Shown: one piece after another, positions 18,273 to 53,798 of the stretch
Position numbering within the stretch: position 1 is the stretch's first letter
Layout of the letters: the number at the start of each line of letters is the position of its first letter
Origin: an uncultured Eubacteriales bacterium
GTDB lineage: Bacteria; Bacillota; Clostridia; Oscillospirales; Acutalibacteraceae
Assembly (NCBI GenBank): GCA_900316385.1
Contig: ONCP01000004.1
Coordinates: 1-64,000 of the forward strand
DNA: 64,000 nt
Direction: 5' to 3'
Notes under the pieces: generated by a model
Databases searched by the model: none
The model's input: the letters and a program-made list of their open reading frames with translations, nothing else
What the model was told of the DNA's origin: nothing
Translations under genes and position numbers: made by a program

Positions 18273-18283
18273 ACCTTTTGGCG

Positions 18284-18308
18284 CCTTTTTATTTTGGCTG
18301 AGCCGGCG
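18284..18308 (-). repeat. displaced copy of tRNA-Gln 3' end plus terminator start
   Basis: 25 bases identical to 18474-18498, comprising CGCCGGCTCAGCCA of tRNA-Gln and the AAATAAAAAGG that follows it. It lies at the far end of the tRNA-attached repeat, as if the tRNA end had been duplicated around it. Confidence 0.85.
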
Positions 18309-18315
18309 TATGATA

Positions 18316-18432
18316 CATCTTGACAAACGTTTCATATCGTTTGTCGCGGTGTGAGATAAAACTATCGGTTCATCAGCGCTCCTCGCTAAAAACCGTCCAC
18401 AGGACGGTTTTCTTAACACTCGGCTTCGAATC
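18316..18432 (-). repeat. tRNA-attached repeat, Gln copy
   Basis: About 117 bases closely similar to 52052-52169. Conserved blocks, read on the minus strand, are ATTCGAAGCCGAG, AAGAAAAC, a short GC-rich hairpin with TTTTTA, CGAGGAGCG, TGATGAA, and a tail ATGAAACG...CAAGATG. The hairpin stem differs from the Lys copy by paired changes. It begins with an inverted copy of the tRNA-Gln T-arm/acceptor side (CGGCGGGATTCGAA) and ends against a second direct copy of the tRNA 3' end. No known family recognised. Confidence 0.8.
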
Positions 18433-18484
18433 CCGCCGTCTGAATTTTAAAAAATAAAAAGGCACCTTTGGTACCTTTTTATTT

Positions 18485-18559
18485 TGGCTGAGCCGGCGGG
18501 ATTCGAACCCACGAGTGCAGGAGTCAAAGTCCTGTGCCTTACCGCTTGGCGACGGCTCA
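18485..18559 (-). tRNA. tRNA-Gln (anticodon TTG)
   Basis: 75 bases with cloverleaf and encoded CCA. The anticodon arm is CAGGA-CTTTGAC-TCCTG, giving TTG, which reads CAA. The 3' side is followed by an AAAAGGTACC/GGTGCC terminator and then the tRNA-attached repeat. Promoter at 18575-18603. Confidence 0.95.
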
Positions 18560-51929: not shown

Positions 51930-52005
51930 GATCCATTAGCTCAGTTGGCAGAGCACTTGACTTTTAATCAAGGTGTCCGGAGTTCGAATCTCCGATGGAT
52001 CACCA
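51930..52005 (+). tRNA. tRNA-Lys (anticodon TTT)
   Basis: 76 bases; acceptor GATCCAT/ATGGATC, CCA encoded; anticodon arm CTTGA-CTTTTAA-TCAAG gives TTT. The tRNA 3' end and its terminator are duplicated at 52177-52246. Confidence 0.95.
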
Positions 52006-52009
52006 AAAG

Positions 52010-52038
52010 AAAAGGCAGTCCAAAAAGGGCTGCCTTTT
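52010..52038 (+). terminator. terminator of the tRNA operon
   Basis: AAAAGGCAG/CTGCCTTTT stem with 11-base loop, 5 bases after tRNA-Lys. Confidence 0.85.
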
Positions 52039-52051
52039 GTATTGCCATCGG

Positions 52052-52169
52052 AGATTCGAAGCCGAGGGTAAAGAAAACGCTCCGGGGGAGCGTTTTTACC
52101 GAGGAGCGATGATGAAATATTTCCCACTAACGTGAACCACATAAACGAGATGAAACGCTTCGCAAGATG
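52052..52169 (+). repeat. tRNA-attached repeat, Lys copy
   Basis: About 118 bases similar to 18316-18432 (minus strand). Shared blocks are ATTCGAAGCCGAG, AAGAAAAC-hairpin-GTTTTTA, CGAGGAGCG, TGATGAA, ATGAAACG and GCAAGATG. It is preceded by an inverted copy of the tRNA-Lys 3' part (CCATCGGAGATTCGAA at 52045-52060) and followed by a direct copy of the tRNA end. The hairpin at ~52073-52098 has a run of five Ts and could terminate transcription. Confidence 0.8.
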
Positions 52170-52176
52170 AAACCGG

Positions 52177-52246
52177 CTCCGATGGATCACCATAACAAAA
52201 GGCAGTCCAGAAGGATTGCCTTTTGTTTTGCCATCGGAGAGTCGAA
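52177..52246 (+). repeat. second copy of tRNA-Lys 3' end, terminator and inverted T-arm
   Basis: Direct repeat of 51990-52060: CTCCGATGGATCACCA, then an AAAAGGCA/TGCCTTTT terminator, then CCATCGGAGA-TCGAA. The two copies differ at roughly ten positions, mainly in the terminator loop. Together they bracket the 118-bp repeat. Confidence 0.85.
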
Positions 52247-52249
52247 CCC

Positions 52250-53210
52250 TAGTCTCAAGAGAAGCTTTAAGAAGGTGATCGATAAGATAATCGTAAAGCT
52301 TAAAAAGCTCTGCAACGAGATAAAGGCTGTTTATGGAGCGCGCAACGAGTACGCCGAGGAGCTGGAGAGCAGTATCAATGACCTTGAGGATATCCGTAGG
52401 CAGTGGGAGAAAGCCGTCAAGCAGGGCGTGAAGAATCAGAACACGAAACAAGCGGTGAAAGAAAAAAGCTCCGACACGGGAGTGCAGGAGTTAGCTAGGG
52501 TCGCTAGAAAGAATAGTTTTGATAAAGCTCTTACTAAAGCTGAATGGGCTTCATTCTATTCATCTTTGACAAAAAACAATCAAAGAGATTATTTTAGAGT
52601 AAACGAGAATGGTATTCTGATACCTGACGCTAATAATTCGTATAAATATAAGCTTGTATATTATGATTACATAAATCAGTCGGTTGAAGCTGTTTACATT
52701 TTAGAAAATTATGATTATAATATACACAGTGATATTATAGACGCTGCTCAGTTTATAATTCAATTTCAAAAAGAGGTGAGCCTTGGTGAAGAGCACGCAA
52801 CAGCAGTTTTGGAAAATATTTCAAACATGTATGGAACAATATTCAAGAGATACCGCCCTTCAAGTAGGCGCTTTATTAAACTCACACGAAAGAGTAATAG
52901 CGGCAGAGCAAATTCTCAAAACGAATCCGACAGAGGAAGAGCTTCTGCAAAAACTCAACAATATCAAGACCGAAAAGCCGAACAGATAGACCGTGTTTAT
53001 CTTGCTGCGGTTGAGAACGGCGATACTGAGACCGCGCAGCGAATGGTTGACGAAGCGGCTAAGGCTGCGGGGTACACACCGAAGATGATGTATCACGGTA
53101 GCCCGAATTTCTTCACCACTTTTGATAAGAAGCGGGCACGGTACAGCGGCTATTATGGAAAGGGCTTCTATTTCTCCGAACCAACATTGAAGGTAAGCCA
53201 ATTGAAGTGA
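52250..53210 (+). pseudogene. 5'-truncated prophage polyvalent protein fragment with ADP-ribosyltransferase-like motif
   Basis: An open frame that begins inside the tRNA-attached repeat has no own start. Recognisable protein begins near VKLKKLCNEIKAVYGARNEY and runs through a charged linker to YTPKMMYHGSPNFFTTFDKKRARYSGYYGKGFYFSE, the H-G-[ST] and GxGxYF pattern of ADP-ribosyltransferase domains found in phage polyvalent proteins. The frame ends shortly after this and continues as a shifted fragment, so it is decayed. Likely the remnant of a prophage or integrative element at tRNA-Lys. Confidence 0.7.
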
Positions 53211-53296
53211 AAATAACTATAAGAAAGTCTGCTAGAAAAAATAAGTTCTATGTTCATAACATCATAAAAAATCAGCACCAGAATAGTCTTATTTAG
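53188..53296 (+). pseudogene. shifted fragment of the same phage protein
   Basis: In a different frame, overlapping the previous end, ~35 codons read IEGKPIEVKITIRKSARKNK then FYVHNII and stop. This block (V-x-V-T-I-R-K-S) is typical of phage polyvalent-protein nuclease-like regions. It shows that the remnant contains at least two breaks. Confidence 0.5.
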
Positions 53297-53798
53297 AGAA
53301 GTATATTCTGAGAATAAACCAATCTTAGCTGTTATTGAACTAAGTCCAATGAATAAAAACGGATTAGCCTTAGATGAACTAAAAATTGTAAGTGCCTATG
53401 GAAAAGATAATGCGCAAAGATTTATCAATGATTCCGAAGTTATATATTTAGAATCGAATAAAAAAAGAGTTAGAAAATGGGAAAAGCGTACTAGGCTCCA
53501 ATTGCCGGTCGGCATTTCCTATTCCAACTCTAATATTATTATATCTGATAAGAGCGAAGATGTCAACAACAATATACAATTCCGAGACCGCGACTACATA
53601 TCAGCTGTTGAGCGCGGAGATATTCCTCTTTCCGAGCGTTTTAAGACGGATAACAAGGATATACGTTTTCAAGACCGCGAAAGCATAAGCTCCGAGGACG
53701 AGCTGCTTGCAAACGCTTCCGCCGTGAGATCGGCATTAATAAATCGAATAAAACAGAACAAAACAGACGCGGTTTCCGTTTTTGAACCGCGTCTGTGA
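53285..53798 (+). pseudogene. MuF C-terminal-domain-like phage fragment
   Basis: Frame continuing LFREVYSENKPILAVIELSP, then LDELKIVSAYGKDNAQRFIND and a KKRVRKWEKRTRLQLPVG block, which fits the MuF C-terminal domain of phage head-associated proteins. Two RFQDRE/QFRDRD-type linkers follow, typical of polyvalent proteins. ATG at 53349 is internal; there is no ribosome site and the N-terminal part is missing. Ends at a strong terminator. Confidence 0.65.

Follow-up and report, generated by a model that had tools for sequence, protein, structure and literature searches.

A candidate gene-free mobile element of fewer than 200 bases at the 3′ ends of tRNA genes in gut Clostridia, with ends that fit the adjoining tRNA

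Islands of the tyrosine-integrase type target the 3′ ends of tRNA and tmRNA genes, leave the gene intact, carry the displaced 3′ fragment at their far end in direct orientation and form tandem arrays; the crossover subsites of their integrases are given in a passage of PMC4383910 as the anticodon loop, the T loop and the T/acceptor junction. The repeat unit described here, whose hosts are many tRNA genes of gut Clostridia, resembles these islands in all of the above respects, but is ∼130–190 bases long where islands measure kilobases, contains neither an integrase nor any other gene, carries an antisense copy of the tRNA end in its interior and has one core family at many tRNAs. MITEs and other nonautonomous elements are likewise short, gene-free and multicopy with terminal inverted repeats. 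The inverted repeats of the unit, in contrast, are host-tRNA sequence and differ from site to site, its direct repeat of 13–14 bp is the tRNA end, terminal inverted repeats of the element's own, in common with an autonomous transposon, are lacking and no autonomous partner was seen in three genomes. Integron attC sites and cassette arrays also place an imperfect inverted repeat around a variable structured middle, in tandem beside an anchor site; however, the arms of the unit are tRNA sequence and it has no cassette genes. The core sites of attC are a GTTRRRY/RYYYAAC pair, and none was noticed in the unit. The REP/BIME sequences of RAYT transposases are similar to the unit as hairpin-bearing extragenic repeats in tandem, but the unit is tied to tRNA ends and no match to the Y1 transposase (PF01797) was found in the copy-rich genomes G000, G008 and G015 (G000 is the genome to which the DNA studied here belongs, other G-numbers are further genomes and L-numbers are fetched loci). 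Tycheposons are mobile elements located at tRNA genes together with displaced tRNA parts, but they are gene-bearing and kilobase-sized, unlike the unit. A search of the open-access literature gave no description of the element, and our statement of its absence extends as far as that search.

Two units were analysed in the window (the whole stretch of DNA under study, 64 kb). Read on the tRNA strand, a unit consists of an intact tRNA, a terminator (t1), an antisense copy of the adjacent tRNA 3′ end that stops at T54 of the T loop (A′), a core (X) and a sense copy of tRNA positions ∼63–76 whose last bases are CCA (a). The core has 116 nt in both copies and contains no gene and no integrase of its own within this length. 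The features, with the basis of each in parentheses, are as follows.

18485..18559, (−) strand: tRNA-Gln(TTG), intact host gene (ARAGORN, Rfam)
18439..18484, (−) strand: terminator-like hairpin t1 between the tRNA CCA and A′ of the Gln unit (inverted repeat and sequence)
18425..18438, (−) strand: A′ of the Gln unit, antisense to tRNA-Gln from T54 to the acceptor, CGGCGGGATTCGAA (inverted repeat and sequence)
18309..18424, (−) strand: core X of the Gln unit, 116 nt (DNA query, covariance model, sequence)
18389..18411, (−) strand: hairpin P3 within the Gln core, AAAACCGTCC-TGT-GGACGGTTTT (fold, covariation)
18295..18308, (−) strand: a of the Gln unit, sense copy of tRNA-Gln ∼63–76, CGCCGGCTCAGCCA (direct repeat and sequence)
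18277..18294, (−) strand: partial second copy of the terminator, Gln unit (direct repeat)
51930..52005, (+) strand: tRNA-Lys(TTT), host gene (ARAGORN)
52006..52044, (+) strand: terminator t1 of the Lys unit (repeat analysis)
52045..52060, (+) strand: A′ of the Lys unit, antisense to the tRNA-Lys 3′ end, CCATCGGAGATTCGAA (repeat analysis and sequence)
52061..52176, (+) strand: core X of the Lys unit, 116 nt (covariance model, sequence)
52074..52096, (+) strand: hairpin P3 of the Lys unit (fold)
52177..52192, (+) strand: a of the Lys unit, sense copy of the tRNA-Lys 3′ end, CTCCGATGGATCACCA (direct repeat and sequence)
52193..52249, (+) strand: second terminator and truncated second A′, a distal Lys unit cut off at its start (sequence and repeat analysis)

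The core is bracketed by inverted tRNA ends, and the tRNA and the far copy are in direct orientation. A preliminary description of the window had reported that the repeat behind tRNA-Gln(TTG) recurs behind tRNA-Lys and that a 25-bp perfect copy of the tRNA-Gln 3′ end and the start of its terminator lies on the far side. Both statements are correct: the Lys core is real, and the direct repeat (18284–18308 versus 18474–18498) is part of a 32-nt pair at 94%. The inverted copy of the tRNA end between the terminator and the core had been missed in both units. The complement of the final tRNA bases is usually missing from A′, and a reading of A′ as a retroviral-type primer-binding site was dropped for that reason. 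Directly 3′ of the Lys unit, the window (52167–53798) contains ORFs of a mobile-element remnant, one of which gives a weak match to ART-PolyVal (E 2.6e-4, below the cut-off).

Our preferred reading, to which we assign a probability of about one half, is that t1-A′-X-a is a very small, gene-free, nonautonomous mobile element whose insertion sites are tRNA and tmRNA 3′ ends and whose own ends are re-matched to each host tRNA. At the level of sequence, this reading is supported by the distribution of the unit, by an empty orthologous site and by shared cores.

As a DNA query, the window element gave 16 rows in its own genome and matched 25 of 59 genomes and two of 24 genera. A covariance model built from 49 sequences matched 39 of the 40 genomes of the genus, well beyond the two copies from which the preliminary description had proposed a wider search, and identified 23 copies in G000, 37 in G033 and 25 in G015 (85 in total). 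With 23 copies in its own genome, the repeat cannot be ascribed to chance. Beyond the genus, a pattern scan with the hairpin and its edges as query gave at least 117 stretches in the genome collection and nine in viral contigs, one of the nine (L258) having by eye an A′ of the T-arm type. The matches listed come mostly from Oscillospiraceae, Ruminococcaceae and other Clostridia; among 140 hits in these loci, 43 have a same-strand tRNA ≤400 nt upstream, three have an opposite-strand tRNA downstream, one has a same-strand tRNA downstream and 93 have none, and the last group includes some with a T-arm type A′ but no recognised tRNA and others that are differently arranged. Also among the matches listed are related cores in other Clostridia, at the 3′ end of rpsI (at least six loci: L142, L164, L166, L179, L181 and L205) and of infB (L155 and L238); here part of the gene end is present twice and X has the opposite orientation (gene names read by eye from translations). 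We treat these copies as relatives of the core and not as the same unit as the tRNA-end element, and their orientation counts against the mobile-element reading. A target motif, GGTTCNAA, was dropped because the infB-type and other non-tRNA copies do not fit it. Two Bifidobacterium records (L156 and L198) among the matches listed show the hairpin pattern with a GAGCC/GGCGAGG base. At Rfam gathering scores neither the window nor 17 further loci showed a family at X, and a search of five loci at E values up to 5 gave only sub-threshold matches; as no score on X in these loci exceeded the cut-off of any family, a known RNA was dropped as the identity of X. Searches of a phage collection and a plasmid collection gave no match in either, and a phage or plasmid origin was dropped on this account.

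Analysis of copy positions in G000, G033 and G015, with tRNAs located by Rfam RF00005 (120 of 124 used, keeping two weak sub-cut-off fragments and leaving out four weaker matches), places 57 of the 85 copies behind a same-strand tRNA, at a distance of ≤700 nt on its 3′ side, whereas no copy is close to a tRNA in a different arrangement; random placement would put ∼0.7% of copies near the 3′ side of a tRNA. The remaining 28 copies, 27 of which were fetched and read, comprise 14 with a displaced 3′ fragment of a tRNA or tmRNA just before them, eight at contig edges (including the one not fetched) and six (6/85 overall) with no tRNA end nearby, the last counting against the mobile-element reading. 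The preliminary description had asked whether the repeat always lies 3′ of tRNA genes; in these three genomes 71 of 85 copies lie behind tRNA or tmRNA genes or their fragments, where the tmRNA assignment is based on a match to the 3′ end of the tmRNA located in the window. The fetched loci, in which the element is over-represented, supplied 186 tRNAs; an A′ 10-mer occurs within 130 nt on the 3′ side of 66 of these and within 130 nt on the 5′ side of none, and for a second occurrence of the sense 13-mer the corresponding numbers are 59 and none.

The fit between ends and host was assessed on 72 distinct units with an upstream tRNA, covering 22 tRNA types. Left flanks (A′) had a longest match of 11.5 nt to their own tRNA and of 5.0 nt to other types; for right flanks (a) the values were 11.7 and 4.5 nt, respectively. 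The own tRNA was strictly best for 47 left flanks and 63 right flanks, and none of 10000 shuffles reached the summed own-tRNA match. In 88 distinct loci, selected for an A′ of ≥10 nt, A′ ends exactly at T54 in 71 and 1–3 nt beyond it in 17. An exact sense copy with terminal CCA is present in 52 of these loci, with a length of 13–16 nt in 38, 17–23 nt in 11 and 10–12 nt in three; 14 nt is the most frequent value (27/52) and 13 nt occurs in five. The absence of an exact a from the other 36 loci counts against the mobile-element reading, as do two exceptions in which a belongs to another tRNA: L090 (tRNA-Arg) has that of another tRNA-Arg and L139 that of another tRNA-Leu variant. Most copies of a start at ∼63, near the T/acceptor junction; other families start in the T loop, and starts near the anticodon were seen in L183 and L204/L267. 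We infer insertion by a tyrosine integrase because these starts sit at the reported crossover subsites.

Occupancy was compared at two sites. The 28 tRNA-Gln(TTG) loci of the genus include eight with A′ and a core, 17 with neither, one followed by another tRNA, one at a contig edge and one not recognised; the eight occupied loci have several subfamilies, adapted in each case to the tRNA variant present there. Only G000 and G033 share the upstream gene, and therefore no orthology is claimed for the empty Gln loci. The G033 locus, one of the 17, was rejected as a clean empty site since its terminator is interrupted. The 25 Arg-His-Lys loci comprise three with units, one with a remnant right half, 18 with none and three that were unreadable; among the 18, tRNA-Gln lies directly behind in seven and <100 nt was available in two. 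At the tRNA-Lys site the same gene lies upstream in G000, G033, G015, G031 and G008; X is present in the first three, and G008 has a plain terminator with no A′ or X. Empty tRNA sites, which the preliminary description had proposed to look for in sister strains, are thus found. The tRNA-Leu(TAA) sites of G015 and G033 were not counted as unoccupied, being probably occupied by islands; in G015 the same contig also carries a unit, located past the end of an integrase-like gene and 14 bp of tRNA end. In the loci read, A′ was never seen without at least the first bases of a core; L294 has A′ and nine core bases.

A single subfamily is found at several tRNAs, tandem arrays occur and a single tRNA may be followed by a tandem of different subfamilies (Met in G033, L302). 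For the 72 units, the closest core is at another tRNA of the same genome in 27 cases (7.6 expected from shuffling), at the same tRNA in another genome in five (3.3 expected) and in neither category in 40 (61.2 expected), indicating that there is no separate lineage of cores for each tRNA. Cores would either move between tRNAs and acquire new ends or, once resident, convert each other, and gene conversion (concerted evolution of the cores) could equally yield the similarity within a genome. A second short MITE-like repeat (CACCAAAATATAGTCGTTG ... CAACTCCTTATTTTGGAG, with an GGCGGCGGTCGCAACGCTAC tail) lies behind or inside X units (L057 ∼780–870, L062, L063 ∼1185–1260, L275, L280, L286, L290 and L300); in L286 it splits the core in two copies.

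Covariation in X is restricted to the hairpin P3 and its base P2, where pairing is kept through many double changes, and a structured RNA beyond the hairpin was rejected for this reason. Among ∼1730 cells of P3, almost all (∼1709) are Watson–Crick, with eight G·T/G·U and six A·C; these numbers give no sign that one strand is favoured as RNA. Either a bidirectional terminator or homogenised DNA arms would give the P3 pattern. The tandem G·A in P2 has its stable form on the tRNA strand alone and so points to a single-strand role of some kind. In the right half of X the sequence is conserved and no helix is seen; by eye, no shared open frame was noticed in it, and its GATGAA repeats could be candidate recombinase arm sites. 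Hammerhead-like and box C/D-like words (CTGATGA and GAAA, by eye) were dropped because they are not common to all copies. Template switching makes the arms of imperfect inverted repeats perfect, according to PMC7202029, and is proposed in PMC8794818 to create and maintain hairpins with compensatory changes.

On the preferred mobile-element reading, we hold it most likely that the unit would be integrated by an integrase acting in trans and that A′ would be copied from the tRNA. A tyrosine integrase supplied in this way may carry out site-specific recombination at the tRNA 3′ end, leaving the tRNA intact and a as its displaced 3′ end (attR), with new units entering beside the tRNA and pushing older ones away. 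A′ is not explained by conservative recombination alone. Since a cut-and-paste element could not bring the right antisense T arm for each tRNA, we infer that A′ is fitted by DNA synthesis templated on the local tRNA, which might take place either at the time of insertion or afterwards, through template switching inside the tRNA-3′/t1/A′ hairpin. A more far-reaching version, which we regard as possible but doubtful, is that of 'chameleon' ends, in which the antisense left end and the sense right end would both be taken from the new target tRNA by templated synthesis at each insertion, so that one core could spread to almost any tRNA, to tmRNA and to certain protein-gene 3′ ends and leave the gene unharmed. 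Islands with tyrosine integrases do use the same tRNAs as the units. In G015, a ∼7-kb element (L292:170–7272) is inserted in tRNA-Thr(GGT), between the tRNA and the unit; it encodes a Phage_integrase protein (PF00589, E 4.5e-31), a G2P-like rolling-circle replication protein (REP_ORF2-G2P, PF23343) and an HTH regulator and carries a long tRNA-half repeat. At ∼60.7–64.3 kb of contig C16 of G000 (L065 and L273), ∼3.2 kb separates two pairs of tRNA-Arg(CCT) and unit, the first with an intact tRNA and the second with a 3′ half that starts at the anticodon. No autonomous partner, excised form or dedicated enzyme came to light, which weighs against the mobile-element reading. A search of three genomes with the right half of X, allowing ≤1 mismatch, gave 47 places, chance-level matches included (13 for the control), almost only inside units and with no convincing non-unit context.

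Fitted ends would also result from target-copying transposition without a tyrosine integrase, in which the end of a single-stranded or RNA intermediate of X is extended on the tRNA gene and both A′ and a are made from the target each time. This alternative, the best placed of three yet still unlikely, fits the usual end of A′ at T54, the agreement of A′ with the local tRNA variant even when tRNA-Gln is occupied by different subfamilies in different species, the strand preference of the P2 G·A pairs and the frequent truncation of distal units inside X (by eye, uncounted). However, P3 lacks any strand asymmetry and copy number does not go with the presence of reverse transcriptase (15/40 genomes) or of Y1 transposase (22/40): G008 has 26 copies and neither enzyme, and G015 has 25 copies and no Y1. 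Reverse transcriptase gave one match each in G000, G033 and G015 and none in G008, G031, G018 and G006.

The unit could instead serve the cell as a structured RNA or terminator module under selection, with a protecting or insulating effect on tRNA transcription units. The covariation of P3 and P2 described above, the likeness of P3 to a bidirectional intrinsic terminator and the company of tRNA, tmRNA, rpsI and infB, all of which are translation genes, speak for such a module; we nevertheless judge it improbable, given that only 44 of the 120 tRNAs in the three genomes carry the unit, its presence varies between sister species, tRNAs already possess a terminator, P3 has eight G·U and six A·C cells and template switching, in the account of PMC8794818, can make such double changes. 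The preliminary description had offered both a nonautonomous tRNA-targeting element and a conserved small-RNA module; the former is supported, while the latter is unsupported because a given tRNA may have the unit in one species and not in another, or a different subfamily of it, and because covariation is limited to the terminator-like hairpin and its base. The weakest alternative, in which larger tRNA islands would have integrated repeatedly and been imperfectly excised, leaving scars that tandem duplication multiplied, draws on the integrase islands at the same tRNAs and on two islands in which an integrase-like gene end (by eye) and a 13–14 bp tRNA end directly precede a unit (L279 and L282), but is very improbable in that the observed island ends are unlike X, the core is uniform across tRNAs (116 nt in both window copies) and the right half of X is hardly found outside units.

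If the mobile-element reading is true, a gene-free element of fewer than 200 bases colonises many tRNA genes with the ends of each copy fitted to its own tRNA, and the usual rule that a tRNA-targeting element is bound to one att sequence would be broken. The units would then offer a natural system for studying the re-templating of mobile-DNA ends, would account for tRNA 3′-end fragments that annotation tools may meet in Clostridia and would show how template switching could imitate RNA covariation.
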